NCBI RefSeq assembly: GCF_023507705.1
Contig: NZ_JALBGD010000001.1
Span: forward strand, 62,001-126,000
Direction of reading: 5' to 3'
Source: Stappia sp. WLB 29
Lineage (GTDB): Bacteria > Pseudomonadota > Alphaproteobacteria > Rhizobiales > Stappiaceae
Length of the DNA stretch: 64,000 bases
The position numbers and the translations under genes were made by a program. Shown piece by piece: positions 21,347 to 48,818 of the stretch (positions are counted from its first letter, which is position 1; every line of letters starts with the position of its first letter). The notes under the pieces were generated by a model. That model saw nothing but the letters and a program-made list of their open reading frames with translations. It was not told where the DNA came from and ran no database searches.

Positions 21347-22636
21347 CTAGCGTGCAGCGAGGCCGTAATCGCCGAAACTGATGAAATCGACGAGCTGTCC
21401 CTCGGCGACCGACATCATCTCCTCGGGAATCTCGATAAGGCCGTCTGCCTCGCGCAGTGAGGTGATGAGGCCTGAGCCGTCGCGGGCGAACTTGCGCACG
21501 ACGGTCCGCCCGGTCGCATCGCGGCCCAGAATGCCGCGATAGAACTCGCGGCGGTCGGGCTTCTTCTTCGGCACGGAGAAGGCGGCCGGGATCTGGTAGC
21601 GAACCGGCTCGAAGAAGGTGCCGCCGCCGAGCGCAGACAGGACCGGCAGGACGTAGAGAAGGCCGCAAACCATGGCGGCGACCGGATTGCCCGGCAGGCC
21701 GAGCGTGACGCAGTCGCCAATACGGCCGAAATTCATCGGCCGGCCCGGCTTGATCGCCAGTTGCCACATGTGCCGGCTGCCGAGTTCGTCGATGGCGTCG
21801 ACGAAATGGTCCTCCTCGCCGCGAGAGGCGCCGCCCGTCGTGACGATGACATCGTGGCTCGCTGCGGCGCTTGCCAGCGCTTCACGCACCGCCTCCGAGC
21901 GATCCGGCAGGATACCGAAGTCCGTGACATCAACGCCGCTTGCCGCCACCAACCCCGACAGGAGAAAATGGTTGCTGTCGTAGACGCCTCCGGCAGGCAA
22001 AGGCTGGCCGGGGCGGCGCAACTCGTCGCCACTGGAGACCAGCGCCACGCGCAGCTTGCGGAACACGCCGACCCGGTCCGTGCCGGTGGAGGCGATCGCC
22101 GCGATGTCCTGCGGTCTCAGCCTGGCGCCGGCCCGCACCAGCACCTCGCCGGCCTTCAGGTCTTCGCCGGCCTTGCGCCGGTTGGCGCCGGGCTTCAGGC
22201 CGGGCGGAACATGCACGAAAGTCCGCCCGCCGCGCTCGGCGATTTCGCAGTCCTCCTGCATGGCGACCGTGTCCGCGCCCTCCGGCATCAGGGCGCCGGT
22301 GAAGATTCGCGCCGCACTGCCGACGGCGAGCGGGGCCTCGAGCGGATGGCCCGCCGCGATGCGCGCGGAGACCGGCAAGAGGCCGTCGCCGGCGGAGAGA
22401 TAGTGCTCATGGAGAAACGCGTAGCCGTCGACGGCTGAATTGTCGGCGAGCGGGACGTTCTGAGGCGCCGAGACGGCTTCTGCCAGAATACGGGCATGGG
22501 CGTGGTCGAGCCCGACGGCCTCTCGCTCAACCACCGGGACGACCCGCTCGCGTAGGATGGCCAGCGCCTCCGCATGGCTCAGCCGGTCGCGGTCGTGCAG
22601 GAAGCAGTCGTCAAGCAGTCGTCTGGTCGGAGCCAT
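21347..22636 (-). CDS. moeA: Molybdopterin molybdenumtransferase
   Basis: Inserts molybdate into adenylylated molybdopterin to finish the molybdenum cofactor, in the cytosol. 429 residues. Visible are LADNSAVDGYAF near residue 64 (catalytic Asp region), GEDLKAGEVLVRAGARL, VALVSSGDEL, the MoaB/Mog-type motif IVTTGGASRGEEDHF and LGLPGNPVAAMVCG. Its start lies inside the 3' end of mobB (26-base overlap), the last gene of the fdhD-mobA-mobB-moeA operon that serves the FDH encoded nearby. Confidence 0.95.
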   Translation of the reverse strand: MAPTRRLLDDCFLHDRDRLSHAEALAILRERVVPVVEREAVGLDHAHARILAEAVSAPQNVPLADNSAVDGYAFLHEHYLSAGDGLLPVSARIAAGHPLEAPLAVGSAARIFTGALMPEGADTVAMQEDCEIAERGGRTFVHVPPGLKPGANRRKAGEDLKAGEVLVRAGARLRPQDIAAIASTGTDRVGVFRKLRVALVSSGDELRRPGQPLPAGGVYDSNHFLLSGLVAASGVDVTDFGILPDRSEAVREALASAAASHDVIVTTGGASRGEEDHFVDAIDELGSRHMWQLAIKPGRPMNFGRIGDCVTLGLPGNPVAAMVCGLLYVLPVLSALGGGTFFEPVRYQIPAAFSVPKKKPDRREFYRGILGRDATGRTVVRKFARDGSGLITSLREADGLIEIPEEMMSVAEGQLVDFISFGDYGLAAR

Positions 22637-23165
22637 GTCGCGTCCCGGAAAGTCCGCAGGTGGTCAGGATGAAGCTGGCGATGCCGTCGATATCATCGAG
22701 ATGGTAGACCGGCAGGGCCGTATCCGCCACGGCGCTGTCCGAAGCGATGGCGACCACATGCGGATCGCCCGGTGAGAGCGGCTCGCCGCGCGCAGCAGAA
22801 GACCGCCGCAGCTCCAGCTTGGGCAGCGGCGTGCGCTTGTAGCCCTCGACCAGCACCAGGTCGCAGGGCGACAGGCGGGCAAGGATCTCTTCAAGCGAAG
22901 GTTCCGCCTCGTCGCGCAATTCGTGCATCACGGCCCAGCGGCGACCCGACACCAGGGCCGTCTCGACGGCACCGGCCGTCCGGTGGCGATGGCTGTCCGT
23001 GCCCTCGTGGTCGATGTCGAAGGCGTGATGTGCATGCTTGACCGTGGCAACGCGAAACCCGCGCGCCGTGATCGCCGCGACGAGGCGCTCGGTCATGGTG
23101 GTCTTGCCGCTGTTCTTCCACCCGGCGATGCCGAAGACCGGGGCAGGGGCGCTTTCGTCGGTCAT
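22611..23165 (-). CDS. mobB: Molybdopterin-guanine dinucleotide biosynthesis adaptor MobB
   Basis: 184 residues. P-loop GTP-binding protein that assists MobA in forming the bis-MGD cofactor. The opening VFGIAGWKNSGKTTMTERLV holds Walker A (GWKNSGKTT), and VKHAHHAFDIDHEGTDSHRHR is the typical MobB switch region; LVLVEGYKRTPLPKLEL follows. ATG 23165 overlaps the mobA stop by four bases. It overlaps moeA by 26 bases at the 3' end, so three cofactor genes are tightly coupled. Confidence 0.93.
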   Translation of the reverse strand: MTDESAPAPVFGIAGWKNSGKTTMTERLVAAITARGFRVATVKHAHHAFDIDHEGTDSHRHRTAGAVETALVSGRRWAVMHELRDEAEPSLEEILARLSPCDLVLVEGYKRTPLPKLELRRSSAARGEPLSPGDPHVVAIASDSAVADTALPVYHLDDIDGIASFILTTCGLSGTRHGSDQTTA

Positions 23166-23788
23166 GCTCCGGCCTTCAGGAGATCTTCGGCGGCAGCCAG
23201 ATCCTCGGGCGTGTTGACGTTGAAGAACGGATCGGGCGCGCCGGGCGGCGGGGTGAAGTCGGCGCTCGTGTTGGGATGCAGGTCGACGAAGGCCAGCACC
23301 TTTCGCGTCGTACCCTGGCGCAGGAAAGTCTCGAGCGAGTCCGCGACCGCGACCGGCCAGTAGCCGAAGACCGGGTGCATGTGCCCGTCGGCCCGGGCCA
23401 GCACGATCCGTTGCGGATCCTCGCTGCGTGCGGCAACGAGGCGGGCAGCAAGATCCACCGGATAGAACGGCGTGTCGCCGGCGACAGACACGATTCCGTC
23501 CGTACCCGGAGCATGGATCTGCGCCCAGCGGAGACCCGCGAGAACGCCCGCCAGCGGCCCGGCAAAGCCCTCGACCGGATCGGGCGCGACCGGCAGGCCG
23601 AACTCGGCGAAGCGCCCGGCCTCGCCATTGGCGTTGAGCACGAGAGGGCCGACCTGCGGCCGAAGCCGTGCGATGACGCGGGCGAGCATGGTTTCGCCGC
23701 CCAGCGGCAGCAGCGGCTTGTCGCCGCCGCCCATGCGGCGAGCAAGGCCGCCGGCCAGGATGCACCCTGCGAGATCTGCAGTGCTCAT
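23162..23788 (-). CDS. mobA: Molybdenum cofactor guanylyltransferase
   Basis: 208 residues. Transfers GMP from GTP to Mo-molybdopterin. The nucleotide-binding signature CILAGGLARRMGGGDKPLLPLGG is at the start (LAGG-x-x-x-R-M-G-x-x-D-K pattern), and VAGDTPFYPVDL holds the metal-binding Asp. It ends in NVNTPEDLAAAEDL, as expected. Start ATG 23788 overlaps the fdhD stop by four bases. MGD is needed by the FDH catalytic subunit at 28868. Confidence 0.94.
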   Translation of the reverse strand: MSTADLAGCILAGGLARRMGGGDKPLLPLGGETMLARVIARLRPQVGPLVLNANGEAGRFAEFGLPVAPDPVEGFAGPLAGVLAGLRWAQIHAPGTDGIVSVAGDTPFYPVDLAARLVAARSEDPQRIVLARADGHMHPVFGYWPVAVADSLETFLRQGTTRKVLAFVDLHPNTSADFTPPPGAPDPFFNVNTPEDLAAAEDLLKAGA

Positions 23789-24705
23789 GCGGCATCGCCC
23801 TCGCTGCGCGAGCCTTTGCGGGCGTGGCGCGGATCCTCCCGCTCGCCTGCCTCGTGCAGCGCGTCGTACTCGACCCGCTCGGGCCCCGACAGCACGACGA
23901 AGCGCTGGCCACGCGCCCGGCCGACCAGCGTCAGCCCGACGCGGCGGGCAAGCTCCACGCCCCAGGCGGTGAAGCCCGAGCGCGAGACGAGAATGGGAAT
24001 GCCCATCATCGCGGTCTTGATGACCATCTCGGAGGTCAGCCGGCCGGTCGTGTAGAAGATCTTGTCCTGCGGCGGGATATGGTTGAGCCACATCCAACCG
24101 GCGATCTTGTCGACGGCATTGTGCCGTCCGACGTCTTCCATATAGGCGGCCGCCCGGTCTTCCTGGCACAGCACGCAGCCGTGAATCGCCCCGGCCTCCA
24201 GATAGAGCGAGGGCTGGGTATTGATCTTACGGGTGAGGGCGTGCAGCCAGGAGGTGCGAAGGCGGGCCGAGGGGTCGAGCACGATCTCGTCGAAGCGCTC
24301 CATCACATCGCCGAAAACGGTGCCTTGCGCGCATCCGGAGGTGCGCACCTTCTTCTTCATCTTCTCCTCGTAGTTGGTCTCGCGCTCGGTGCGCACGACC
24401 ACAACCTCGAGGTCGTCGTCATAATCGATGCCGGTGATGCGGTCGTCCGGCCGCAGCATGTTCTGGTTCAGCAGGTAGCCGACGGCCAGCAGATCCGGAC
24501 GGTCGCCGATCGTCATCATCGTGACGATCTCCTGCGCGTTGAGATAGAGTGTCAGCGGCCGCTCCGTGACGACGCGGATCTCCACCTCGCGGCCGGTCTG
24601 GTCGATGCCGGTTACCGGGGTGGACAGGCGCTCGTCCTGCGGATCGGGCCGGACGAGAAAATCCGGCAACCGTTCCGGAGCAACGTCTTTTCGAAGGTTC
24701 TGCAA
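23785..24705 (-). CDS. fdhD: Formate dehydrogenase accessory sulfurtransferase FdhD, variant Cys pattern
   Basis: 306 residues. FdhD passes sulfur from IscS to the molybdenum site of formate dehydrogenase. The family blocks are RPLTLYLNAQEIVTMMTIG, YMEDVGRHNAVDKIAGW and TGRLTSEMVIKTAMMGIP. In E. coli the sulfur relay uses a C-x2-C pair; here that segment reads SGCAQGTVFG, with only one Cys, while another pair appears in IHGCVLCQEDR about 65 residues later. Start is taken as TTG 24705, because GGGAGGGAGG lies five bases upstream; a longer TTG start at 24780 lacks such a site. It heads the fdhD-mobA-mobB-moeA operon. Confidence 0.9.
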   Translation of the reverse strand: MQNLRKDVAPERLPDFLVRPDPQDERLSTPVTGIDQTGREVEIRVVTERPLTLYLNAQEIVTMMTIGDRPDLLAVGYLLNQNMLRPDDRITGIDYDDDLEVVVVRTERETNYEEKMKKKVRTSGCAQGTVFGDVMERFDEIVLDPSARLRTSWLHALTRKINTQPSLYLEAGAIHGCVLCQEDRAAAYMEDVGRHNAVDKIAGWMWLNHIPPQDKIFYTTGRLTSEMVIKTAMMGIPILVSRSGFTAWGVELARRVGLTLVGRARGQRFVVLSGPERVEYDALHEAGEREDPRHARKGSRSEGDAA

Positions 24706-24831
24706 GCTGTCCTCCCTCCCGTGCGACTCGAAATCCCCCGCGAAACGGGACCCACGGCGCACGGTGTCTATTGCAATCAAACTAGGGAAGGAGGGGCGAG
24801 GCTGGCAAGGGGACGGACGCGCGCGCCGGCC

Positions 24832-25290: not shown

Positions 25291-25421
25291 GGACTGCCTC
25301 GATGCGTCTGTCATGACATGCAGTCTAGTGACAACCCCTTGGTGTTCCGTAAGTGGAAAACCGAAGTCTTGCCTGTGACCATTAACTCGCTGGCAAGCAA
25401 GCAGGATCGCCGCTGCGAGGC

Positions 25422-25889: not shown

Positions 25890-26160
25890 TTTTCCGATCC
25901 TTGCTTGCGGTGTCCCCAGCCACCCTTGCAGTTTGCCGCGCAAGGTCTCGACCAATGGTTAAGGAGACGTCGACGGGCACGTGAAAATCGCTCCCTGCTG
26001 CCGTTTTGTCGCGTTTGCGCCGGACATGAACGCAGATGTGCCGGGCGTGTTTGCGGGGCTGCGACGGGAAAGCAATTGACGTTTCCAGGTGCGGCCTTAC
26101 GTTCCGCGCATGTGATCGGGCACGGGAACCGTGATGTTCTGGAAGAAAAAGAGGGATGCA

Positions 26161-27339
26161 ATGCCGACGCGCGAAGAGGTCCTTGCCGAGCTTTCCAAGG
26201 TCAAGGGGCCGGATCTCAAAGGGGATATCGTGTCGCTTGGCCTTGTCTCGGATGTTTTCATTTCCGAGGGGAAGGTGATCTTTTCGATCACCGTGCCGGC
26301 GGAACGGGCGCAGGAGCTGGAGCCGATGCGGCAGGCGGCCGAGAAGGTCGTCGGCAAGCTCGCCGGCGTCGAGAAGGTGCTGGCGGCGCTGACCTCCGAG
26401 CGCCAGGGCGGGGCGGGAACCAAGACGCCGCCGGTGCGACCGGCCCCCGCCGCCGCCGACATGGGCAGTGTCCCGCCGCCGATGCAGCGCCGTGCGGCGC
26501 ATGCAGCGCCTGAGCAGGCGGCAAAGCCTGGCGTGCCGGGCGTGAAAGCGATCATCGCGGTCGCCTCCGGCAAGGGCGGCGTCGGCAAGTCGACCACCAC
26601 CTGCAATTTGGCGCTCGCGCTGCAGGCGAACGGGCTCAAGGTCGGCGTGCTCGATGCGGACATCTACGGCCCGTCGATCCCGCGCCTCTTCCGTGTCTCG
26701 GGCCGGCCGGAACCGGTTTCCGGTCGCATCCTCAAGCCGCTGGAGGGCTACGGCATCAAGGTGATGTCGATGGGCTTTCTCGTGGACGAGGAGACCCCGA
26801 TGATCTGGCGCGGGCCGATGGTGATCTCCGCCATCACCCAGATGTTGCGCGAGGTCGCCTGGGGCGAACTGGACGTGCTCGTAGTCGACATGCCGCCGGG
26901 AACCGGCGACGCGCAGCTGACCATGGCGCAGAACGTTCCGCTGGCCGGGGCGGTGATCGTGTCCACGCCGCAGGACCTGGCTCTGATTGACGCGCGCAAG
27001 GGGCTCAACATGTTCCGCCGCGTGGATGTGCCATTGCTCGGCATCGTCGAGAACATGAGCTACTTCCTGTGCCCCGATTGCGGCGGGCGCCACGACATCT
27101 TCGGCCATGGCGGAGCGCGTGCGGAAGCCGAAAAGCTGGGCGTGCCGTTCCTCGGTGAAGTTCCGCTGGATATGGCGATCCGCATCAACTCGGACGCCGG
27201 TACGCCGGTGACCGTTACCGACCCTGAAGGAACCCATGCCGCGATCTATCGCGACATCGCATCGAAGGTATGGGCGGAGATCGAGCGCAACCGCGAAGGC
27301 GGACAGCGCGCCGCGCCGCGCATCGTCATCGAGAGCTAG
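26161..27339 (+). CDS. mrp: Mrp/ApbC-type Fe-S cluster carrier ATPase
   Basis: 392 residues. The N-terminal MIP18-like domain reads LSKVKGPDLKGDIVSLGLVSDVFI (residues ~9-32), then a Pro/Ala linker, then the deviant Walker A VASGKGGVGKSTTTCNLAL near residue 140. DMPPGTGDAQLTM is the Walker B/switch region, and YFLCPDCGGRHDIFG carries the C-x2-C that binds the bridging [4Fe-4S] cluster at the dimer interface. It delivers Fe-S clusters in the cytosol. GAGGG precedes ATG 26161; an ATG at 26134 is also in frame. It lies between the cofactor operon and the Fe-S-rich FDH operon. Confidence 0.92.
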   Translation: MPTREEVLAELSKVKGPDLKGDIVSLGLVSDVFISEGKVIFSITVPAERAQELEPMRQAAEKVVGKLAGVEKVLAALTSERQGGAGTKTPPVRPAPAAADMGSVPPPMQRRAAHAAPEQAAKPGVPGVKAIIAVASGKGGVGKSTTTCNLALALQANGLKVGVLDADIYGPSIPRLFRVSGRPEPVSGRILKPLEGYGIKVMSMGFLVDEETPMIWRGPMVISAITQMLREVAWGELDVLVVDMPPGTGDAQLTMAQNVPLAGAVIVSTPQDLALIDARKGLNMFRRVDVPLLGIVENMSYFLCPDCGGRHDIFGHGGARAEAEKLGVPFLGEVPLDMAIRINSDAGTPVTVTDPEGTHAAIYRDIASKVWAEIERNREGGQRAAPRIVIES

Positions 27340-27797: not shown

Positions 27798-28469
27798 ATG
27801 ATCAACAAGCCGGATTTCGGTGCCGCCGTTGCGGATTCCGAAACGACGGAGGCGCATGTGGTAGAGAAGCTGGCTGTCGCCCCCGAAGACGGGGAGCGGG
27901 CCATTCTCTACGGCATTCTGGCAAGCGGGCTCGAGCGGGCCGCAGATCGCGGTTGGCTGGCCGCTGTCGCGGCGCTGCCGCGCCTCGACGGCGAAATCGG
28001 TGGTCCGCTGGCCGAGCTCTCCCGTCTCGCTGCTGCTGTCGATCCCGAGGCGCTCCGGCGCGAATATCACGACTTGTTCATCGGCGTCGGGCGGGGCGAA
28101 CTCGTCCCTTACGCTTCGTACTATCTGACCGGTTTTCTGAACGAGAAGCCGCTGGCTATGCTGCGTCAGGACATGCGTAGGCTCGGTATCGAGCGCGATC
28201 CCGACATTCACGAGCCGGAGGACCACATCGCGGCGGTTTGCGCGATGATGGCCGGGCTGATCGACGGCAGCTTCGGCGAGGGGGGCGAGGACGAGGCTTC
28301 CGCCTTCTTCCGTGCTCACCTAGCCGTTTGGGCGCCTTATTTCTTCAAGGATCTGGCTGCGTCCACGACGGGCGAGTTGTATCCGGCGCTGGGGCGTCTG
28401 GGGCAGGCATTCCTTGCGGTCGAGGTCGAGGCGGATAGGCTTTTTGCGGAGCACCGCAAGACGGGTTGA
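27798..28469 (+). CDS. TorD/DmsD-family chaperone for the FDH catalytic subunit
   Basis: 223 residues, all-helical. The family pattern is visible: EALRREYHDLFIGVGRGELVPYASYYLTGFL around residue 90 (the Y/F-x-x-L-F and P-x-x-S/Y-x-Y segments), and the later EPEDHIAAVCAMMAGLI (E-P-x-D-H). Such chaperones bind the Tat signal of molybdoenzymes and hold export until the cofactor is inserted. Start ATG 27798 with GAGGGAG nine bases before it. First gene of the operon; next comes the small Tat protein. Confidence 0.88.
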   Translation: MINKPDFGAAVADSETTEAHVVEKLAVAPEDGERAILYGILASGLERAADRGWLAAVAALPRLDGEIGGPLAELSRLAAAVDPEALRREYHDLFIGVGRGELVPYASYYLTGFLNEKPLAMLRQDMRRLGIERDPDIHEPEDHIAAVCAMMAGLIDGSFGEGGEDEASAFFRAHLAVWAPYFFKDLAASTTGELYPALGRLGQAFLAVEVEADRLFAEHRKTG

Positions 28470-28555
28470 GTATCTGGCCCGGCAACGACCGGGCAAAAGG
28501 CGGGCAGCCGGCAAAGCAGCTGTCCAGGGCAATGGCGATGGAACGAGAGGGTGTC

Positions 28556-28747
28556 ATGAGACGCAAGGACACAGCGATTGAGGCAGATCGTCGGAGTTTC
28601 CTGAAGCTTGCAGGGCTCGGTGCCGTAGCGGGTACCGCGACGCTCGTGACCGGCGAAGCCGAAGCGGTCGAGGCCGACAAGGCGGCAGGCAGCGGTTATC
28701 GCGAGACCGAGCATGTGAAGACCTTCTACGACACGGCCCGGTTCTGA
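28556..28747 (+). CDS. Small twin-arginine protein of FDH operons (TIGR02811-like)
   Basis: 63 residues. A Tat motif DRRSFLKLAGLGAVAG is followed by a hydrophobic stretch and an A-E-A-type cleavage region, leaving about 25 residues ending in TEHVKTFYDTARF. This matches the 'formate dehydrogenase region Tat target' family as I remember it. Its function is unknown. GAGAGGG precedes ATG 28556. It is always found between a TorD-like chaperone and the catalytic subunit, as here, so it may be an extra exported subunit or an export helper. Confidence 0.85.
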   Translation: MRRKDTAIEADRRSFLKLAGLGAVAGTATLVTGEAEAVEADKAAGSGYRETEHVKTFYDTARF

Positions 28748-28867
28748 CCTCCGAGGCCGCCTGACTGTCTTAAGTCGAAATTCAGTGCCCCGAGCCGTAG
28801 GCAAAAAAGGGGCATGCGCAGAATGAACCGTCACGAAACGGACCTGCGCAATCGAGGGAGAAACGTG

Positions 28868-31849
28868 ATGCTGAGGAAGAAGACGAGCGGGACTGCGCGT
28901 CGTTCCAGCCTGGCTTCCGCGATCGAGGCGATCGGCGCCAGCGCGATGGATCGCCGTACGTTCCTGCGCAGGTCGGGCCTTGCTGCGGGTGGGCTCGCCG
29001 CAGCCGGGGCGCTCGCCGGCGGCATGGTGCGCAAGGCCGAGGCGGCCGGGCCGACCAACGCCAAGGTCGAGATCAAGAAGTCCGTCTGCACCCACTGCTC
29101 GGTCGGCTGTACCGTGCTGGCGGAAGTCCAGGACGGCGTGTGGACCGGCCAGGAGCCGGGCTTCGACAGCCCGTTCAATCTCGGCTCGCACTGCGCCAAG
29201 GGCGCTTCGGTACGTGAGCACGCCCATGGTGAGCGCCGCCTGAAGTACCCGACCAAGCTGGTCGGCGGAAAGTGGGAGCGCATTTCCTGGGATCAGGCGA
29301 TCAACGAGATCGGCGACCAGATGCTGAAGATCCGCGACGAGAGCGGTCCGGATAGCGTCTACTGGCTCGGCTCGGCCAAGCACAGCAACGAGCAGGCCTA
29401 CCTGGTTCGTAAGTTCGCCGCCTTCTGGGGCACGAACAACGTCGACCACCAGGCGCGTATCTGTCACTCCACCACGGTCGCAGGTGTCGCGAACACCTGG
29501 GGCTACGGTGCGATGACGAACTCGTACAACGACATCCACAATTCCAAGGCGATCTTCATCATCGGCGGCAATCCCGCCGAGGCGCACCCGGTCTCCCTGC
29601 TTCATGTGCTGAAGGCGAAGGAAGAGAACGCGGCGCCGCTGATCGTCTGCGATCCGCGCTTCACCCGCACTGCGGCGCATGCATCGGAATATGTCCGTTT
29701 CCGTCCGGGCTCCGACGTCGCACTGGTCTGGGGCATCCTCTGGCACATCTTCGAGAACGGTTGGGAGGACAAGGAGTTCCTGCGCCAGCGCGTCTGGGGG
29801 ATGGATCAGGTCAAGGCCGAGGTGGCCAAGTGGACGCCGGAAGAGACCGAGCGCGTCACAGGCGTGCCGGGGTCGCAGCTGAAGCGCGTCGCCCGTACCC
29901 TGGCGAACAACCGTCCCGGCACCGTAATCTGGTGCATGGGCGGCACCCAGCACACCAACGGCAACAATAACACCCGTGCCTATTGCGCCCTGCAGCTTGC
30001 GCTCGGCAACATGGGCAAGGCCGGCGGCGGCACCAACATCTTCCGCGGCCATGACAACGTGCAGGGCGCGACGGACCTGGGCGTGCTTGCCGACACGCTG
30101 CCGGGCTATTATGGCCTGGCAGAAGGCTCCTGGCGCCACTGGGCGCGCGTGTGGGGCGTTTCCTACGACAGCCTTGCCGAACGCTTCGCCACGATGAAGG
30201 GCGCAGACGGCAAGGACAAGCCGATGATGTTCGAGAACGGCATCACGGTGTCGCGCTGGATCGACGGCGTATTGGAAGACAAGGCGAACCTCCTTCAGCC
30301 GGACAACACCCGCGCGATGGTGTTCTGGGGCCACGCTCCGAACTCGCAGACCCGTCTGCCCGACATGAAGCGTGCGATGGAGAAGCTCGATCTCTTGGTC
30401 ATCATCGATCCGTTCCCGACCATGTCGGCGGTGATGCATGACCGCAAGGACGGCGTCTACCTGCTGCCGGCGACCACTCAGTTCGAGACCTACGGCTCGG
30501 TGACGGCATCGAACCGCTCGCTGCAGTGGCGCGAGAAGGTCATTGATCCGCTGTTCGAGTCCAAGACCGACCACACCATCGCGTATCTCTTCGCGAAGAA
30601 GTTCGGTTTTGCCGAGGACATGTTCAAGAATATCGAGGTGAACGGCGAGGAGCCGCTCATCGAGGACGTGACCCGCGAGTTCAATCGCGGCATGTGGACC
30701 ATCGGCTATACCGGCCAGTCGCCGGAGCGGATGAAGCTGCACATGGAGAACCAGCACACGTTCGACCGCACGACCCTGCGCGCCAATGGCGGCCCGGCAG
30801 ATGGCGACTTCTATGGCTTGCCTTGGCCGTGCTGGGGGACTGCCGAAATGAAGCACCCCGGCTCTGCGGTGCTCTACGACACGTCGCTGCCGGTCGCCGA
30901 GGGCGGCATGGGCTTCCGCGCCCGTTTCGGCGTGGAGAAGGACGGCGACAACCTGCTGGCCGAAGGCTCCTGGCCGGTCGGCTCGGAAATCGAGGACGGT
31001 TATCCCGAGTTCACGATGGCCATGCTGATCAAGCTGGGCTGGGACAAGGATCTGACGCCGTACGAGCGGCGGATGATCGAGTGGGCGGCCGGCATGATCG
31101 ATGCCATGCCCTCTGCGGAAGAGGTCGGCGAGACCTCGCAGACCGGCGATATCCCGTCGGACTACAACGACCGGGTCGGCGGCGTGAACTGGAAGACCGA
31201 CCTGTCCGGCGGCATCCAGCGCGTTGCGATCAAGCATGGCTGCGCGCCCTACGGCAATGCCAAGGCCCGCGTCGTCGTGTGGACGTTCCCGGATCCGGTG
31301 CCGCTGCACCGCGAGCCGCTCTACACCAGCCGTCGCGATCTGCTCGACAAGTATGCGACCTATGAGGACAAGACCTTCTGGCGCGTCCCCACCCGCTACA
31401 AGTCGATCCAGGAGAACGACTATTCCAAGGACTTCCCGATCATCCTGACTTCGGGCCGTCTGGTGGAATACGAGGGCGGCGGCGACGAGACCCGCTCCAA
31501 CCCGTGGCTGGCCGAGCTGCAGCAGGACATGTTCATCGAGATCAATCCGCGCGATGCCAACAATCTCGGTATTCGCGACAGGGAAATGGTCTGGGTGCAC
31601 GGTCCGGAAGGCGGCAAGGTCAAGGTGATGGCCATGGTGACCGAACGCGTCGGCGTGGGCGTTGCCTTCATGCCGTTCCACTTCGGCGGCCATTTCCAGG
31701 GCGAGGACCAGAGGCACAAGTATCCGACCGGTTCGGATCCCTATGTGCTCGGCGAGGCGACCAACACGGCCCAGACCTACGGCTATGACAGCGTCACCCA
31801 GATGCAAGAAACCAAGGCCACGCTCTGCCGCATCGAGCGCGTGGCGTAA
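28868..31849 (+). CDS. Periplasmic formate dehydrogenase, catalytic alpha subunit (Mo, Cys-type)
   Basis: 993 residues. It oxidises formate to CO2 at a bis-MGD molybdenum site. A Tat signal is near residue 28 (DRRTFLRRSGL, cleavage ~residue 60). The proximal [4Fe-4S] cluster is bound by Cys74, Cys77, Cys81 and Cys109, with Lys111 for electron transfer. The metal ligand is Cys199 in DHQARICHSTTVAG (codon TGT); E. coli FdnG has selenocysteine here, so this is the Cys form. His200 completes the active site. The C-terminal MGD-binding domain starts near residue 850 (PIILTSGRLVEYEGGG). GGGAG precedes ATG 28868. The beta subunit follows in 12 bases. Confidence 0.95.
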   Translation: MLRKKTSGTARRSSLASAIEAIGASAMDRRTFLRRSGLAAGGLAAAGALAGGMVRKAEAAGPTNAKVEIKKSVCTHCSVGCTVLAEVQDGVWTGQEPGFDSPFNLGSHCAKGASVREHAHGERRLKYPTKLVGGKWERISWDQAINEIGDQMLKIRDESGPDSVYWLGSAKHSNEQAYLVRKFAAFWGTNNVDHQARICHSTTVAGVANTWGYGAMTNSYNDIHNSKAIFIIGGNPAEAHPVSLLHVLKAKEENAAPLIVCDPRFTRTAAHASEYVRFRPGSDVALVWGILWHIFENGWEDKEFLRQRVWGMDQVKAEVAKWTPEETERVTGVPGSQLKRVARTLANNRPGTVIWCMGGTQHTNGNNNTRAYCALQLALGNMGKAGGGTNIFRGHDNVQGATDLGVLADTLPGYYGLAEGSWRHWARVWGVSYDSLAERFATMKGADGKDKPMMFENGITVSRWIDGVLEDKANLLQPDNTRAMVFWGHAPNSQTRLPDMKRAMEKLDLLVIIDPFPTMSAVMHDRKDGVYLLPATTQFETYGSVTASNRSLQWREKVIDPLFESKTDHTIAYLFAKKFGFAEDMFKNIEVNGEEPLIEDVTREFNRGMWTIGYTGQSPERMKLHMENQHTFDRTTLRANGGPADGDFYGLPWPCWGTAEMKHPGSAVLYDTSLPVAEGGMGFRARFGVEKDGDNLLAEGSWPVGSEIEDGYPEFTMAMLIKLGWDKDLTPYERRMIEWAAGMIDAMPSAEEVGETSQTGDIPSDYNDRVGGVNWKTDLSGGIQRVAIKHGCAPYGNAKARVVVWTFPDPVPLHREPLYTSRRDLLDKYATYEDKTFWRVPTRYKSIQENDYSKDFPIILTSGRLVEYEGGGDETRSNPWLAELQQDMFIEINPRDANNLGIRDREMVWVHGPEGGKVKVMAMVTERVGVGVAFMPFHFGGHFQGEDQRHKYPTGSDPYVLGEATNTAQTYGYDSVTQMQETKATLCRIERVA

Positions 31850-38102: not shown

Positions 38103-39115
38103 TGCCGCAATTCTGGAAATCGTCAGGGGCGCACCTGTTGAGCCGCGATGCGAACGGCTATCTCGAGGTGACGCCGGACTTCCTTCGGGCTTATTTCACC
38201 AGGCCGGAGATCCATCCCGTCGAAGAATCCTGCGAGGCCGAGCATCGCCTGTTCGAGACGCTGATGACCGATCCCTTTGCCGCGGTCGGCGAAAGCGATC
38301 TTCTGGCCATCGCCGACCCGGATGCGGCCGACAACTACCGTGTCGTCCTGCGCTTCCGGGACCATCTGGTCGCCCATGGCAGCCTGGAGGGAGGCTATGC
38401 GGCCCTTTTCAAGGGCACTGGCATCGACATTCCGCCGATGTTCATCGATCAACTCGTGCACCTGATCACCCACAATGTCCTGCGCAAGGTGGCCGACCCG
38501 TTGCGCGTGCGCGCCGGCGAACTCCTGTTCCGGGAGCAGGTCGTGACCACCGCGGAAGGACAGCTGATGCTGGCCGATGCCGAGATGGTCGAGACCTATT
38601 CGCGCACCGGTGGCCTCGGCGGCCTCGGTGCGCTGCTGGCGGAAGCCGGCACGCCCATGCCGTCGGTCTCGCTGGACGTGCTCACCGAGGAGAATGCCTC
38701 GATCTATTGGGACCGGTCGGACCGCTTCGACACGGCCATCGATTTTCGCTTTACCGAGCCGGCGCTGGATGCCTTCGCCCGTGTTCTGGAAAGCTGGATA
38801 GGCCATTTCCATGGGGTGTCTGTGCGCATCCAGCCGCAGCAGTCGATCCGCGACGAGCGCTGGTCCTGGCATGTCGGGCTGGATGCGGAGTCAACGCGCA
38901 TCCTCAATGCCCTCTACGAGGGGCAGCAGGTTGGGGAGGCGGATCTGGGGCGCATCGTCGCCCTGTTCCGCATGGATTTCGACAATCGGGGCGATGCCAT
39001 CGAGAGCATGCGCGGGAAGCCGGTCTGGATGGGGCTGGCGATGGGCGCCGACAATATCGTGCGCATGAAACCCCAGAACCTGTTGACAAACCTGCCCGTT
39101 CGGCCTCGAAACTGA
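38102..39115 (+). CDS. DUF6352 family protein
   Basis: 337 residues. The signature start MPQFWKSSGAHLLSRDANG is followed by YFTRPEIHPVEESCEAEHRLF and FIDQLVHLITHNVLR. It is rich in acidic and helical segments and has no signal peptide, so it is cytosolic. Function unknown. It is the third gene of a coupled trio (ligase-like, DUF6505, DUF6352) that follows FDH genes. It ends 44 bases before an EamA transporter. Confidence 0.78.
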   Translation: MPQFWKSSGAHLLSRDANGYLEVTPDFLRAYFTRPEIHPVEESCEAEHRLFETLMTDPFAAVGESDLLAIADPDAADNYRVVLRFRDHLVAHGSLEGGYAALFKGTGIDIPPMFIDQLVHLITHNVLRKVADPLRVRAGELLFREQVVTTAEGQLMLADAEMVETYSRTGGLGGLGALLAEAGTPMPSVSLDVLTEENASIYWDRSDRFDTAIDFRFTEPALDAFARVLESWIGHFHGVSVRIQPQQSIRDERWSWHVGLDAESTRILNALYEGQQVGEADLGRIVALFRMDFDNRGDAIESMRGKPVWMGLAMGADNIVRMKPQNLLTNLPVRPRN

Positions 39116-43234: not shown

Positions 43235-43282
43235 GCTAGATCGGATGAAATCCGCTCGCCGCCGGGCGGCGACCGGTCCCTG

Positions 43283-45322
43283 TCAATTGTCCTTGAGGAA
43301 GTCGTCCGCGGTCAGCGGTCCCTTTTCCATCGACAGGTAATCGTCCGTGGTGACGATCCGCGGCCGCGCACCGCCGCGCAGCGGCGTGTCCTCCATCTCC
43401 CACTGCGCCGAAATCCGGCAGTCGTCGCACATCTCGATCAGGGCGATCTGGTCGGCACGCTGGAACATCCAGTGCTTGCCGGACAGTTTTTCGCGGATGC
43501 GGGCGATGGACGAGCGGGTGCCGAAGGCCTTGCCGCAGGACACGCAGGTGGCCGGCTCTTCCTCATGCAGCACCTCCGGCCGCATGGCGCTTGGCGCGGC
43601 GTTGTAACGCGCGTCGAGCGTGATGACCTGCTCCGGACAGGTATTGGCGCAAAGGCCGCATTGCACGCAGGCCGCTTCCGTCAGGCTGACCTGGGGCTTG
43701 TCCGGGTTGTCGGAGAGCGCTGCTGTCGGACAGGCGGAAACGCAGGCGAGGCAGAGCGTGCAGCCGTCCGAGGCGAGCTGGATGCGGCCATAGGGCGCGT
43801 GCGCGGGCAGGGCGATCATTTCCTGCGGCATCGGTGCGCCCTCCAGCAGCCGGGCGATCGCGCTGCGGGCGACGTCGCGCTTGGTGCCGACCGGATCGAA
43901 GCTTGCAGAGCGGACGGAGAGCGGGGTTGCCTCCAGCATAAAATAGCCGGAGACGGCGTCCGGGTCGTCTTCGACGGCGATGGCGAAGGCGCCGTGAGGC
44001 TTGTGCCCCATGCCGGTGAGCAGGCTCTCGCAGAGCTCGATCTCCATGCGCAGGGCGTCCAGCTCATGCGCCTTGGAGGGCGGGCAGAGGAATACGATGC
44101 GCTTGGCGCCGGCGAGGACGGCGGCGAGCATGGAGTCATGGCCGAAGCTCGTGACGGCATGGGTGCCATGCGGCAGCACGTTGCCCGGCAGGCCTTCGCC
44201 GAGGCGGGCGAGCGCATTGATGATGTCGCCGCCATGCCGGCTTTCGTGGACGAGGAGAACGGCATCCCTGCCGCCGGCCTCGCGATACGTGCCGAGCAGT
44301 GCCTGGAGCCGGCGGATCTGGCTGCCGCGCTCCGGGTAGCGGTAGCTGACAGCGCCTGTGGGGCAGTGGGCTGCGCAGGAGCCGCAGCCGCCGCAAATGC
44401 CCGGGTCGATGGCGATCTCGCGCCCCGTGCTCGAAATCGCCCCCGCCGGACAGGCGTCCAGGCAGTTGGTGCAGCCGGTCTTACCCGAGCGGCCATGGGC
44501 GCAGATCGAGGCATCGTAGGTGACGTAGAGCGGCTTTTCGAACGTGCCGACCATGTCCGAGATGTCGAACATAGCCCGTGCCACGACGGCCGGATTTCCG
44601 GGGTCGACGCGGATGTAGCCGTCGCGCTTGGAGGGTGCACTGACCAGCGGCGTCTCGCCGGACAAGTCGAGGATCAGGCTGCAATTGGCGCGTGCGCCGT
44701 CGCGGGCCAGGGCAAAGGAAGGCGCGCCACGAGACGACGGCAGCATCTGGGCGTAGCCGTCGACCGTGACCTCGAAATCGCCGAGCGATCCCTTGAGCAT
44801 GCGAATGCGCCCCATGTGTACCGGGATTTCCAGCGTGCCGGGCAGAATGAGATCGGAGGCATCGCTGAGCAGCAGCGACACCGACAGCCGACCCTCCAGG
44901 GCCTGTGCCGCGTCGAGCGCCTGCTGGCCGGCACCGTAGACGAGGCAGACCCCATCCGATTCGATCGAGTGCAGGGCCGCGGGAACGGAGGGTGTCAGCG
45001 CTTCGGCGAGCAGGGCCGAGATTTTCGGATGCGGGTCGGTCGACGTGCCGCACCAGCCGGCGCGTTCGCGGATGTTGACGAAGGAGAGCTCCTGTTCGGC
45101 GCCTCGCTCCTCGGCGATCTCCTGGAACAGCGGGGCTTCCTGCGTGCAGGCGACGAGGAGCGGCTCGCCGGTCGCCAACGCCTTTTCGAACGAGGCGATC
45201 TGCGCGCGGCAGAGCTGGGTATGAACGGTGTGGTCCTTGTCCAGCCCTGCGATGCGGCCTGCGTCGAGACGCATGGTCTTCTCGCAATTGCACAGCATGA
45301 CCCGGGGTTTGCTCGACGCCAT
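43283..45322 (-). CDS. Multi-cluster 4Fe-4S protein with HdrA-like N-terminus
   Basis: 679 residues, cytosolic. Residues ~8-110 (VMLCNCEKTMRLD, HTQLCRAQIASFEKAL, LLVACTQEAPLF, NIRERAGWCGT) resemble the N-terminal domain of heterodisulfide reductase HdrA. Ferredoxin-type sites follow: CTNCLDACPAGAIS and CGGCGSCAAHCPTG near residue 290, then CTLCLACVSACPTA and CVQCGLCANTCPEQ near residue 540, and two more pairs (CVSCGKAF, CDDCRIS) near the end. So four ferredoxin clusters, and a possible metal site in the C-terminus. Divergent from DUF3305. Likely an electron-transfer or cluster-assembly partner of the FDH system. Confidence 0.85.
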   Translation of the reverse strand: MASSKPRVMLCNCEKTMRLDAGRIAGLDKDHTVHTQLCRAQIASFEKALATGEPLLVACTQEAPLFQEIAEERGAEQELSFVNIRERAGWCGTSTDPHPKISALLAEALTPSVPAALHSIESDGVCLVYGAGQQALDAAQALEGRLSVSLLLSDASDLILPGTLEIPVHMGRIRMLKGSLGDFEVTVDGYAQMLPSSRGAPSFALARDGARANCSLILDLSGETPLVSAPSKRDGYIRVDPGNPAVVARAMFDISDMVGTFEKPLYVTYDASICAHGRSGKTGCTNCLDACPAGAISSTGREIAIDPGICGGCGSCAAHCPTGAVSYRYPERGSQIRRLQALLGTYREAGGRDAVLLVHESRHGGDIINALARLGEGLPGNVLPHGTHAVTSFGHDSMLAAVLAGAKRIVFLCPPSKAHELDALRMEIELCESLLTGMGHKPHGAFAIAVEDDPDAVSGYFMLEATPLSVRSASFDPVGTKRDVARSAIARLLEGAPMPQEMIALPAHAPYGRIQLASDGCTLCLACVSACPTAALSDNPDKPQVSLTEAACVQCGLCANTCPEQVITLDARYNAAPSAMRPEVLHEEEPATCVSCGKAFGTRSSIARIREKLSGKHWMFQRADQIALIEMCDDCRISAQWEMEDTPLRGGARPRIVTTDDYLSMEKGPLTADDFLKDN

Positions 45323-45516: not shown

Positions 45517-45570
45517 CAGAATTACGTAGATACGGCAATATAGGACCGCATCTTGCGGGGAGGTTTTTAC

Positions 45571-46107
45571 GTGCAAAGGGAAGTGCTTGCGCCGTTCGGC
45601 ATCGTGCTGGAGCGTCGCCCGTCCTCCTCGAAATGGGCGGACTGGTCGTGGAAAGTCACGGAAGTGATCCCTGACGCACCGGCCACCGAGGGATGGACGG
45701 TCATCCATGACGGCGATGGCATCACCCGCTATCTGTCCGCGCCGCACATGCTCGTCCTGCATCACAAGATGGTGGAGGCCTACGACGCCAATATCGAGAC
45801 CGGCACGCCGTCGATCTGGGCGATGCTGGACGACGAAATCATGCCGAAGACACCGCCCTACAGGGTGCGCGGCGTCACGGCCGACCCTTACGAGGCGCAG
45901 GGCGTGCTCGACAGCGCCGCCGGACTGGTGGAGCGGGTCGCCATGCCGCGCGAGACCGTGGCCTGGATGGCGCAATACCTCTCCTCGCTGCCGGAGGCGC
46001 CGGCGTTCCGCAAGCGCCGCCGCGATCGCATCGAGACCGAGAAGCAGATCTTCGGAAAGGAGCCGATCTTCTCGCCGCTCGGCCGCAGAGAGGAGCGGGA
46101 GCCGTGA
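45571..46107 (+). CDS. DUF3305 family protein
   Basis: 178 residues. PFGIVLERRPSSSKWADWSWKVTEVIPDAP, VTADPYEAQGVLDSA, VAMPRETVAWMAQYL and the closing FRKRRRDRIE are the DUF3305 blocks as I recall them. Function unknown. GTG 45571 has GGGGAGG seven bases upstream, which fixes the start; an earlier TTG adds six residues. The stop overlaps the DUF3306 start. The pair is always seen near molybdenum or FDH genes in my memory of alphaproteobacteria. Confidence 0.82.
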   Translation: MQREVLAPFGIVLERRPSSSKWADWSWKVTEVIPDAPATEGWTVIHDGDGITRYLSAPHMLVLHHKMVEAYDANIETGTPSIWAMLDDEIMPKTPPYRVRGVTADPYEAQGVLDSAAGLVERVAMPRETVAWMAQYLSSLPEAPAFRKRRRDRIETEKQIFGKEPIFSPLGRREEREP

Positions 46108-46865
46108 GCACCGAGACCGACCGCGGCTTCCTCTCGCGCTGGTCGCAGCGCAAGCAGGCAGCGCGTCAGCAGGTCGCCGAGAGCACCGAAGTTGAGCAGA
46201 CGGGGCTCGACGAGGCGAGTTCCGAACTCTCCCACAGCGAGCCGGAGGGCGAAGCACAGCATCCTGGCGCGACGCGCGAAGAGATTGCCGAGGCCAACCG
46301 GGCGGCAGCCGAGGCTGTCGATCTCGAGACGCTCGCCTTCGACTCTGACTTCTCGCTCTTCCTGAAGGAGGGCGTCTCCACCCAGCTCAAGAACGCGGCG
46401 CTGCGCAAGCTCTGGCGGTCCAATCCGGTGCTGGCCTGTGTCGACGGCCTCAACGACTACGACGAGGACTACCGTACAGTGGAGACCTTCGCTGACGGGA
46501 TCCGCTCCTCCTGGCAAGTCGGCAAGGGCTACAGCTGGATGTCGGAGGTGGAGGAAAAGCTGGAGGCGGTGGCCGACGCAGTCGATATGCAGCCCGCTTC
46601 GGACGAGATTCTTGAACGCACTTCGGGCGAGGCGATCCCGGACAATCCGCAAGGCATAGAGGTTGAAGTCTCCGACCTCTCCGATAAGCAAAGCGATGAC
46701 CAGCAAGCCTTGGCGGAGGCGCCCGAAGGAGAGAACGGGCCGGTGCAAGATGGGCTCTCGCTTATGGCACCCATGACCCGCGATGACGGGAAGGTGGCTC
46801 GTCCGCGCACGCCTGCTGCCCAGGAGCCTGCTCGTCCTGCACGTCGGCGTGTGCGCTTCATCTGA
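46104..46865 (+). CDS. DUF3306 family protein
   Basis: 253 residues, strongly acidic, low in structure at both ends. FLSRWSQRKQAARQQ opens it, and LAFDSDFSLFLKEGVSTQLKNAALRKLWRSNP is the conserved core, followed by LNDYDEDYRT. Function unknown. GTG 46104 overlaps the DUF3305 stop (GTGA). Coupling suggests the two proteins act together in maturation of the FDH; this is inference. Confidence 0.82.
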   Translation: MSTETDRGFLSRWSQRKQAARQQVAESTEVEQTGLDEASSELSHSEPEGEAQHPGATREEIAEANRAAAEAVDLETLAFDSDFSLFLKEGVSTQLKNAALRKLWRSNPVLACVDGLNDYDEDYRTVETFADGIRSSWQVGKGYSWMSEVEEKLEAVADAVDMQPASDEILERTSGEAIPDNPQGIEVEVSDLSDKQSDDQQALAEAPEGENGPVQDGLSLMAPMTRDDGKVARPRTPAAQEPARPARRRVRFI

Positions 46866-46887
46866 ACGAGGCGAAGTGCCGGTGCTC

Positions 46888-47217
46888 CTACTGGGGCGGA
46901 AACTGGCTCTCGCAATAGCTGACCGCGCGCGAGCGGAACGTATCGTAGCGCGCCGCGTCGACAAGTCCTTCCTTGCGCATCTGGTCTACCGCGCCGACGC
47001 GTTCGGCGAGGCACGTGTCGAGCTGTGGGTTGCCCGACGACGTCCTGCCGGCGCTGACGGTGCTCGAACTTTCGAACGGCGTCATGGGAACGCCGGCGAA
47101 ACCGACCTTTCCGATCCACACCATGGCAGCCGCGAGCCCCGCTGCGACGGCGAGCGCGGCAAGGCGCGCAGCAAGGCCGTCGATGGCTCGCGGGCGAGAG
47201 ACGGGCGCTTCCGCCAT
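46888..47217 (-). CDS. Hypothetical 109-aa single-pass membrane protein coupled to moaA
   Basis: A hydrophobic helix (AARLAALAVAAGLAAAMVWIG, residues ~15-36) is followed by a periplasmic part of about 65 residues with two Cys (TCLAERVG and SYCESQF), which could form a disulfide. No family recognised. Its ATG is one base past the moaA stop, so it is in the moaA transcript. It is convergent with DUF3306, 22 bases apart. Confidence 0.7.
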   Translation of the reverse strand: MAEAPVSRPRAIDGLAARLAALAVAAGLAAAMVWIGKVGFAGVPMTPFESSSTVSAGRTSSGNPQLDTCLAERVGAVDQMRKEGLVDAARYDTFRSRAVSYCESQFPPQ

Positions 47218-47218
47218 C

Positions 47219-48220
47219 TCAGCCGCCCGTCACGCTCATGTGGCGAGAAACCGCGGGCTGGCGCGTACGCCGGTCGATGATGAAGTCGTGCCCCTTCGGC
47301 TTGCGCCCGATCGCCTCGTCGATGGCAGAGTACAGCAGATCGTCGCTCTCCGAGGCCCGCAGCGCTGCGCGAAGGTCGGCGCTGTCGTCCTGCCCAAGGC
47401 ACATGTAGAGCATGCCGGTGCAGGTCACGCGAACCCGGTTGCAGCTTTCACAGAAATTGTGAGTCATCGGCGTGATGAAGCCAAGTCGCCCGCCGGTCTC
47501 CGCGATGCGCACGTAGCGGGCGGGTCCGCCGGTCTTGTACGGGATGTCCTCGAGCGTCAGGTGTGCGGCAAGGTTGGCGCGTACGAGCGAAAGCGGCAGG
47601 TACTGGTCCGTCCGGTCCTCGTCGATCTCACCGAGCGGCATGGTCTCGATCAGCGTCAGGTCGTAGCCGTTGCCGTGGCACCATTCGATCATCGGCACGA
47701 TTTCGTGCTCATTGACGCCCTTCAGGGCGACCATGTTGATCTTGATCGACAAGCCTGCTGCCGTGGCCGCACGGATCCCGTCCATCACCTTCGCAAGATC
47801 GCCCCAGCGGGTGATCGCGCGGAACCGCGCCGGATCCAACGTGTCGATGGACACGTTGATACGGCGCACGCCGCAGTCGTAAAGTTCCGATGCGTAGCGG
47901 GCGAGCTGCGATCCGTTGGTCGTGATCGTCAGCTCCTCGAGATCACCGCTGTCGATATGGCGTGAGAGCGAGCGGATCAGGCTCATGATGTTCTTGCGCA
48001 CCAGCGGTTCGCCACCGGTCAGGCGCAGCTTACGCACGCCCTTGACGATGAAGGCGGAGCACAGCCGGTCGAGTTCCTCAAGGCTCAGAACCTCCCGCTT
48101 GGGCAGGAAGGTCATGTCTTCGGCCATGCAATAGACGCAACGGAAATCGCAGCGGTCGGTAACGGAAACGCGCAGATAGCTGACGGTTCGCCCGAACGGG
48201 TCGATCATCTGCTGGGACAT
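47219..48220 (-). CDS. moaA: GTP 3',8-cyclase MoaA
   Basis: 333 residues. Radical SAM enzyme of the first step of molybdenum cofactor synthesis (GTP to 3',8-cyclo-GTP). The first [4Fe-4S] cluster is bound by Cys24, Cys28 and Cys31 in [14 protein letters not shown]; the second by [15 protein letters not shown] near residue 260. The C-terminal GG that enters the active site is present (SVTGG). Start ATG 48220. moaC, moaD, moaE and mog are not in the window, so the remaining steps are encoded elsewhere. Confidence 0.95.
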
Positions 48221-48446
48221 CGTGTGTTCCTTGCCCGGCCGCCGGTGCGGCCTCTTGATATCTGGACGCCGGATGCGCGGTGCCTCCGGTCTCCTCCCCA
48301 TTTGGGTATGAAGGTAGCGGAAAGAAGACTTGCGTCAATTGTGCGCAGGAAGGAGATGCAGCCGGCTGCCGTGGCGCTTGCAGTTTGCCGCAGCCCCACT
48401 ATCGTCGCGGCCAACCGAAGCAATGCAACCGGGAAGGATTTGCAAC

Positions 48447-48818
48447 GTGACCGACAGCAAGCCCTGGCCGACGGAACTCCGTCTGAGTAAGGACCGCAAG
48501 CGGCTCACCGTCACCTTCGACACTGGCGAGACGCACGAGTACTCCGCCGAGTATCTGCGCGTCTGTTCTCCCTCTGCGGAGGTGCAGGGGCACTCGCCGG
48601 CACAGCGCAAGACGGTGCCCGGGAAGATGAATGTAGGGATCATGCAGATCGATCCCGTCGGCAACTATGCCGTCCGCATCCATTTCGACGACCTTCACAA
48701 CACCGGGATCTTCTCCTGGGACTATTTCCTCACGCTGGCGAACGAGCGGGAGGAACTGTGGGGCGGCTATCTGCGCGAGCTGGAGGAAAAGGGCCTTTCG
48801 CGCGAGCCGCGGCACTGA
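48447..48818 (+). CDS. DUF971 (gamma-butyrobetaine hydroxylase-like N-domain) protein
   Basis: 123 residues. WPTELRLSKDRKRLTVTFDTGE, then YLRVCSPSAEVQGH and the closing NTGIFSWDYFLTL, are the DUF971 blocks. Such stand-alone domains occur beside Fe-S assembly and Mrp-like genes and may bind zinc; the function is unknown. GTG 48447 has GGGAAGG nine bases before it. It is divergent from moaA, with 226 bases of intergenic sequence in which I see no further element. Confidence 0.85.
   Translation: MTDSKPWPTELRLSKDRKRLTVTFDTGETHEYSAEYLRVCSPSAEVQGHSPAQRKTVPGKMNVGIMQIDPVGNYAVRIHFDDLHNTGIFSWDYFLTLANEREELWGGYLRELEEKGLSREPRH

Follow-up and report, generated by a model that had tools for sequence, protein, structure and literature searches.

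In a 64,000-nucleotide stretch of DNA from Stappia sp. WLB 29 (the window, in which all positions are counted), the region from 21347 to 48818 encodes a formate dehydrogenase (FDH) together with a set of accessory proteins. Judged by the features of its subunits, the enzyme is a cysteine (Cys)-type FDH of the FDH3 type that is exported via the twin-arginine translocation (Tat) pathway. Because several of the accessory families were found almost only in those sampled genomes that also encode FDH3, they are probably dedicated helpers of this enzyme. Three of them, the PF16917 pseudo-ligase, DUF6505 and DUF6352, are collectively called the trio here. The genome is a 4.7-Mb draft close to Stappia, and the nearest named relatives of its DUF6352 protein belong to Stappia strains, with at most 94% identity. 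Genes were identified from reading frames with a coding-type base composition, from profile searches against Pfam and NCBIfam, and from sequence searches against the PDB.

The catalytic subunit is encoded by fdhA (28814..31849, + strand). A twin-arginine signal and the catalytic Cys could be read in FdhA, which matched PDB chain 9vap_A with 1432 bits and homology across most of its length, and a RICHS stretch with the catalytic Cys is common to both. FdhA stayed below the cut-off of TIGR01591 (474 versus 666). Membership in FDH3 follows from the beta subunit FdhB (31862..32461, +), which exceeded the curated equivalog cut-off of NF038355 (FDH3_beta; 345.1 versus 240 bits). The cytochrome b gamma subunit is encoded by fdhC (32818..33978, +; TIGR01583, 146 bits, cut-off 115.85). 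Between fdhB and fdhC lies the gene of a 65-amino-acid (aa) lipoprotein (32564..32761, +) without a Pfam or NCBIfam match; 13 loci including the window have in common a lipobox-like Cys as well as a stretch resembling KGxYxG. Upstream of fdhA, a TorD-family chaperone is encoded (27798..28469, +; PF02613, 108 bits), which fell short of the equivalog cut-offs for TorD (57.6 versus 132) and DmsD (40.9 versus 162) and remains a PF02613 member. It is followed by the gene of a small Tat-targeted protein (28538..28747, +; start uncertain), which exceeded the cut-off of TIGR02811 (52.2 versus 48.45 bits), the family of the formate dehydrogenase region TAT target. An earlier, sequence-only reading of this DNA had counted the small Tat protein among the proteins without known function; the proteins on its list are present, but the Tat protein belongs to this named family.

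Downstream of fdhC, the gene of a fusion between a WD40 propeller and a mono-haem cytochrome c domain (33992..35380, +; PF00400, CxxCH at residue 358) is followed by those of a 54-aa membrane peptide recognized by its hydropathy (35377..35541, +), a trypsin/PDZ protease (35538..36458, +; PF13365 and PF00595), and DUF6494 (36551..36742, +; PF20104, 93 bits). Then come the genes of the trio: the pseudo-ligase with a biotin/lipoate-ligase fold (36802..37617, +; PF16917, 189.6 bits, cut-off 27), DUF6505 (37614..38102, +; PF20115, 160 bits), and DUF6352 (38102..39115, +; PF19879, 300 bits). Further downstream are the genes of a 679-aa iron-sulfur (Fe-S) protein with matches to Fer4 families (43283..45322, −), DUF3305 (45571..46107, +; PF11749, 106 bits, start placed by eye), DUF3306 (46104..46865, +; PF11748, 96 bits), and a 109-aa membrane-anchored protein with two conserved Cys (46888..47217, −). 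The last was recognized by its recurrence at 8 loci including the window and is a recurrent cluster member that had been absent from the earlier component list.

Overlaps of one to four bases had been reported for many of these genes, and several gene pairs were indeed measured at 1 or 4 bases. Four-base overlaps join the WD40-cytochrome gene to the 54-aa peptide gene, PF16917 to DUF6505, and DUF3305 to DUF3306, and the overlap of DUF6505 and DUF6352 comprises 1 base. Further four-base overlaps (54-aa peptide/protease, fdhD/mobA and mobA/mobB) involve starts placed by eye, and that of torD with the Tat gene presupposes an upstream start of the latter, which is doubtful.

The flanks of the region encode moeA (21347..22636, −), a neighbour for metal insertion into molybdopterin that is not private to the cluster, mobB (22611..23165, −; PF03205, 154 bits), mobA (23162..23788, −), the sulfurtransferase gene fdhD (23785..24780, −; PF02634, 259 bits), an mrp/NUBPL-type Fe-S carrier (26131..27339, +; PF10609, 344 bits) and, at the far end, moaA (47219..48220, −; PF06463 and PF04055). 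The starts of mobB and mobA were placed by eye. Two tandem genes of BLUF blue-light receptors (24832-25314 and 25422-25889, both −; PF04940, 68.5 and 36.2 bits) are located between fdhD and mrp; the second protein apparently lacks the residue that we take to be the flavin-contacting Gln. The profile searches confirmed the family-level identities of the listed proteins, with moeA and mobA named from sequence alone, and the FDH cluster is real. The statement that almost every gene concerns molybdenum (Mo) cofactor, Fe-S clusters, Tat export or formate went too far, as the two BLUF genes, the protease gene, EamA, MFS and multicopper oxidase genes and a DUF3144 gene (42932-43234; PF11342) also lie inside the stretch.

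Recurrence of the gene string and its two layers

Gene neighbourhoods were compared for 40 stretches from 29 alphaproteobacterial genomes and for 83 named loci. The 80 DUF6352 loci were the closest of 584 and hence over-represent kin of the window; the 59 loci used for counting were those of at least 15 kb, chosen by DUF6352. The conservation of the cluster exceeds chance, with one gene string across many alphaproteobacteria. It consists of the pseudo-ligase, often DUF6505, and DUF6352; the divergent Fe-S gene; DUF3305 and DUF3306; and TorD, the Tat protein, FdhA, FdhB, often the lipoprotein, FdhC and often the WD40-cytochrome. The sequence-only reading had likewise stated that several of these families recur near FDH in other alphaproteobacteria. 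In Bradyrhizobium sp. 131 and Sinorhizobium meliloti LMB1, PF16917, DUF6505, DUF6352, DUF3305, DUF3306, TorD, Tat, FdhA, fdh3B and FdhC follow one another in this order, all co-directional. Directly upstream of DUF6352, DUF6505 was found in 37 of the 83 loci and the pseudo-ligase in 16 more. Among the 59 loci, 43 contained fdhA, fdhB or fdhC, 15 lacked all nine cluster genes tested, and one (L123) contained the pseudo-ligase, DUF6505 and fdhD in the absence of fdhABC. The WD40-cytochrome recurred at 36 of these loci, the 109-aa protein at 28, the lipoprotein at 18, and the 54-aa peptide at 12. As side observations, the trypsin/PDZ protease gene was located between the cytochrome gene and DUF6494 or the pseudo-ligase gene in 20 of the 59, and DUF3144 was found near the Fe-S gene in 22.

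Twenty further FDH3 stretches were fetched, 12 of them from non-alphaproteobacterial classes of the phylum. These 12 contained the Fe-S gene (11/12), TorD (11/12), the Tat gene (12/12) and DUF3305 (8/12); the pseudo-ligase and DUF6505 were present in a single stretch (L172), and no stretch had DUF6352, the lipoprotein or the WD40-cytochrome. Three FDH3 genomes from outside the class (G187, G359, G387) carry DUF6352 elsewhere in the genome.

The genes had been proposed to form one system, but they split into two layers. Layer 1 occurs inside and outside the Alphaproteobacteria and comprises DUF3305, DUF3306, the multi-cluster Fe-S protein, TorD and the small Tat protein, often with FdhD near. 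Layer 2 is mainly alphaproteobacterial and comprises the trio, the lipoprotein, the WD40-cytochrome c, the 54-aa peptide and the 109-aa protein.

Co-occurrence with FDH3

Two genome samples were used. The class sample comprised 172 alphaproteobacterial genomes from about 140 families, 24 with an FDH3 beta subunit over the cut-off and 148 without; one of the former (G001) was scored positive via a beta gene truncated at contig ends. The phylum sample comprised 279 genomes, 36 with FDH3 and 243 without, and was counted for DUF6352 only. The window's genome is present in both samples, which have G000, G022, G028 and G154 in common. The statistics ignore kinship beyond the even drawing of genomes. 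DUF3306 was seen at loci, and the genome counts cover DUF6352, DUF6505, PF16917, DUF3305, the Fe-S protein, the small Tat protein and DUF6494.

In the class sample, DUF6352 was detected in 23 genomes, 20 of the 24 with FDH3 and 3 of the 148 without (p = 3e-19). The corresponding numbers were 14/24 and 2/148 for DUF6505 (16 genomes), and 24/24 and 3/148 for both DUF3305 and the family of the 679-aa Fe-S protein (27 genomes each). PF16917 scores of at least 120 bits were found in 16/24 and 2/148 (18 genomes), and scores of at least 30 bits for the small Tat protein in 23/24 and 2/148 (25 genomes); both lines were chosen post hoc, once the scores were known, and at the curated cut-offs alone PF16917 occurs in 98 and the small Tat protein in 16 of the 172 genomes. 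The contrasts held when genomes below 2.4 Mb were excluded (24 and 66 genomes remaining), with DUF6352 in 20/24 versus 3/66 (p = 3e-13). In the phylum sample, DUF6352 was present in 14 of the 36 FDH3 genomes versus 0 of the 243 others (p = 2.7e-14), and among the FDH3 genomes it was present in 11/18 within the Alphaproteobacteria and 3/18 from other classes. The sequence-only reading had named equal frequency in genomes lacking this FDH as an outcome that would refute it, and the frequencies differed for DUF6352, DUF6505, DUF3305, the ferredoxin-like Fe-S protein and high-scoring PF16917. It had also listed DUF6494 as private to the cluster; this family was found in 31 genomes, 18/24 with FDH3 and 13/148 without, and is not FDH-specific. 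Among these 13 carriers, G071 and G127 are fragmented drafts that contain FDH-cluster genes. The DUF6494 family extends beyond FDH: in some FDH3-less alphaproteobacteria it stands beside apparent sdhAB or ABC transporter genes (by eye; loci L161, L166, L165).

Altogether, 32 of the 35 distinct DUF6352-positive genomes from both samples have FDH3_beta over the cut-off. Among the exceptions, the same two fragmented drafts have short DUF6352 contigs that bear fdhA and Tat genes, and the FDH3 search gave no match in G007. In addition, G119 has DUF6505 in the absence of FDH3. G125 has kept layer-1 genes: at locus L070, DUF3306, DUF3305, mobA and fdhD and an intact Fe-S gene stand beside apparent genes of DNA-repair polymerases, and the 18 kb examined lack fdhA. 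This gene group would be either a remnant or serve another client enzyme.

The distribution of tungstate uptake bears on the metal of the enzyme. TupA-like tungstate-binding proteins were found in 23 of the 24 FDH3 genomes versus 11 of 40 FDH3-less control genomes of the same class (p = 5e-8), the controls being hand-picked, of at least 2.3 Mb, and including G125 with its layer-1 genes. The TupA-like query scores 219 bits versus the cut-off of 400 for NCBI TupA (NF041772). The window's own genome encodes one TupA-like protein, on contig 2. Because TupA-like proteins track FDH3, and because the homologous SoFdhAB of Shewanella oneidensis (9VAP) is described in the accessible part of its report as a tungsten (W)-containing, oxygen-tolerant Cys-W enzyme (PMC13397495), the window enzyme likely contains tungsten.

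The parallel distribution of tungstate-type transport and FDH3 would also fit a trio that belongs to another process of the same bacteria, for example another W or Mo enzyme, and the trio is indeed absent from some FDH3 genomes. However, the near absence of DUF6352 from FDH3-less genomes in both samples, also after the size cut, makes this reading rather unlikely.

A still weaker candidate is that the genes are passengers, kept with FDH by linkage alone. The EamA, MFS and multicopper oxidase genes do look like passengers, as they were found at 9, 10 and 5 of the 59 loci, nearly all from Stappia and Roseibium. DUF6352, however, shares a contig with FDH3 at a distance of 180 kb to 2.8 Mb in four genomes (G028, G187, G359, G387), and in four others (G051, G105, G128, G159) it is on a separate contig and at least 94 kb away even with abutting contig ends. 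All eight genomes possess FDH3; G135 (26.7 kb) and G087 (19.2 kb) were not counted as unlinked, since their contigs could abut. In a phylogeny of 78 DUF6352 proteins, parsimony requires 5 changes of the linked or unlinked state, or 4 without G135, though the well-supported branches force just 1. Because unlinked DUF6352 still accompanies FDH3, mere hitch-hiking is argued against, and for the cluster families it is very improbable. We regard a dedicated accessory set as well supported and hold it highly probable that DUF6352 has some function for FDH3.

Accessory proteins and a proposed maturation step

DUF6352 has 23 invariant positions in 78 relatives, with a mean column identity of 57%, and its structure was predicted with confidence (predicted local distance difference test, pLDDT, 92; predicted template modelling score, pTM, 0.90). 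The DUF6505 model was also confident (pLDDT 89), and a fold search with it gave no clear match. For both proteins, the sole Pfam matches were their own families and NCBIfam gave none. Neither they nor the pseudo-ligase matched FdhD, FdhE or TorD families in Pfam and NCBIfam, a genome-wide FdhE search not having been made. The idea that the trio replaces FdhE was not upheld on checking, and the survey by Bay et al. (2015) suggests that the two coexist. Active biotin/lipoate ligases have a conserved catalytic lysine and a glycine/arginine-rich loop. The pseudo-ligase is in the same family as 3bfm (profile match to 3bfm_A, 270 bits), and among 15 of its relatives no invariant Lys was found and no such loop was kept. 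The features of an active ligase were thus not found, the relatives having been compared among themselves and not residue by residue with a true ligase.

In the Fe-S protein, 24 Cys are invariant across 13 relatives. By their spacing, 16 of them would fit four [4Fe-4S] sites, in addition to four N-terminal Cys and two CxxC pairs close to the C-terminus. The designation "HdrA-like" was right in so far as ferredoxin stretches are present; against full-length HdrA models, however, the protein reached just 47.5, 45.7 and 42.9 bits (cut-offs 1100, 1400 and 1300). An 8-row profile of its N-terminal domain found no PDB sequence match up to an E value of 10. In G053, a further exception to the co-occurrence with FDH3 (locus L071, by eye), a distant, shorter relative is encoded alongside TorD and a small protein bearing two CxxCH motifs; an Fe-S subunit and a molybdoenzyme-like subunit of a different kind are encoded there too. 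Because of this gene company, the family may also serve other molybdoenzymes.

The likely location of the proteins was assessed from the hydropathy of frames trimmed to the profile envelope, a 19-residue mean above 1.6 being used as a crude line. It was exceeded by none of the DUF3305 (0/26), DUF3306 (0/27) and DUF6494 (0/13) relatives and by few of those of DUF6352 (2/24), DUF6505 (2/14) and TorD (1/25), and it was exceeded by most or all relatives of the lipoprotein (12/17), the 54-aa peptide (7/7), the 109-aa protein (7/8) and FdhC (22/22). Thus DUF6352, DUF6505, DUF3305 and DUF3306 look soluble, and the lipoprotein, the 54-aa peptide and the 109-aa protein look exported or membrane-bound. 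The pseudo-ligase (11/18) and the Fe-S protein (12/25) gave intermediate results, and we take their hydrophobic stretches for helices buried in globular folds, not for spans.

These values bear on the possibility that layer 2 is concerned with electron routing, the trio assembling or regulating the link from FdhABC via the WD40-cytochrome c to the respiratory chain. The company of the WD40-cytochrome, the lipoprotein and the 109-aa protein at the DUF6352-picked loci would suit such a role. Yet DUF6352 and DUF6505 rarely exceed the hydropathy line, they precede DUF3305, DUF3306 and TorD in one operon, and several DUF6352 loci have FDH genes without a WD40-cytochrome within the stretch examined, so that for the trio this role has little probability.

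A role in regulation, with the trio sensing formate, tungstate or the redox state and controlling the operon, appears less probable again. Tungstate-type transporter genes lie near some loci (TupB-like at 17 of the 59, and a transporter also at the S. meliloti locus), but no DNA-binding family in Pfam or NCBIfam was matched by PF16917, DUF6505 or DUF6352, and S. meliloti has a helix-turn-helix regulator beside the transporter.

We slightly favour the interpretation that the pseudo-ligase, DUF6505 and DUF6352 are cytosolic maturation factors dedicated to FDH3. It is suggested by the hydropathy values, by the operon order beside DUF3305, DUF3306 and TorD, by a family that joins MobA to DUF3305, and by the known need of FDHs for FdhD, FdhE and FdhM, as far as the accessible part of the source goes (PMC10609526). 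The family is NF011058 in NCBIfam, in which DUF3305 is joined to MobA according to the family name and to the matched positions (222-372 of 382). Because of this link, and because DUF3305 adjoins mobA and fdhD in three loci (L046, L048, L070), there is a hint that DUF3305 acts at the guanylylated cofactor.

According to this proposal, respiratory FDH3 would be a Tat-exported FdhAB with a Cys-ligated W- or Mo-bis-molybdopterin guanine dinucleotide (bis-MGD) cofactor, held on the cytochrome b anchor FdhC. Before the enzyme leaves the cytosol by Tat export, the trio would work there on apo-FdhAB or on its bis-MGD cofactor and, alongside FdhD and TorD, provide an additional round of loading and quality control, which would enable an aerobe to mature FDH3. 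From FdhABC, electrons would reach the respiratory chain via the exported parts of layer 2. Dedication to FDH3 is well supported; the mechanism, that is, the cytosolic location of the trio, its role in maturation, its substrate and the order of steps, is what we infer. A more specific version, which is speculative and not expected to hold in full, views the trio as a new cofactor-handling complex. In it, the retired ligase fold would hold the W/Mo-bis-MGD intermediate or the receiving FdhA segment, DUF6352, as the conserved partner, would insert or check the cofactor, and the Fe-S protein, with six putative four-cysteine sites, would keep the step reduced, so that an aerobic cell could perform a normally oxygen-sensitive assembly.

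Comparison with known systems

The genes had been described as an undescribed system. This holds for layer 2, as far as the library searched shows, but layer 1 was already published. In the accessible part of a survey of NarJ-type chaperones (Bay et al. 2015; PMC4464133), dmsD- or torD-linked fdhGHI operons with DUF3305, DUF3306, fdh tat and fer4 are reported, and layer 1 is the same neighbourhood. The TorD-fdh operons described there also have putative lipoproteins (DUF1439) and ferredoxins; PF16917, DUF6505, DUF6352, DUF6494 and the WD40-cytochrome are not named in that part of the survey. DUF3305 and DUF3306 are given as putative membrane proteins, in contrast to the absence of a hydrophobic span from all relatives analyzed here. 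Searches by family names retrieved no paper on DUF6352, DUF6505 or DUF6494 in the library used, and layer 2 did not appear there in print under its family names. The structure 3bfm, from the family of the pseudo-ligase, is entitled "biotin protein ligase-like protein of unknown function" and thus offers a structure without an assigned function; a search under its title words gave no relevant paper. The fdh3ABC genes of Methylobacterium extorquens have the FDH3 name in common with the window enzyme; the fdh3 transcripts of an evolved strain increase with formate, and accessory genes are not treated in the accessible part of that study (PMC12445348).

The closest characterized enzyme is SoFdhAB, whose catalytic subunit is homologous to the window FdhA including the active-site Cys stretch. 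SoFdhAB is a W enzyme, and tungsten is likely in the window enzyme. The 12 FDH3 loci outside the class, among which Shewanella was not identified, mostly have layer 1 and, in a single case, the pseudo-ligase and DUF6505. An oxygen-tolerant W-FDH that can be run on electrodes is regarded as notable, according to the portion of the SoFdhAB report at hand (PMC13397495). If three unstudied families are dedicated to FDH3, they become obvious candidates for deletion studies, and could be co-expressed wherever the enzyme is produced in another host. In the available part of a further source, the insertion of Mo/W-bis-MGD, its sulfuration and its checking in FDHs are described as still partly open, and FdhD, FdhE and Campylobacter FdhM are named as FDH-dedicated factors, FdhM being a TorD-family protein for the periplasmic FdhABC (PMC10609526).

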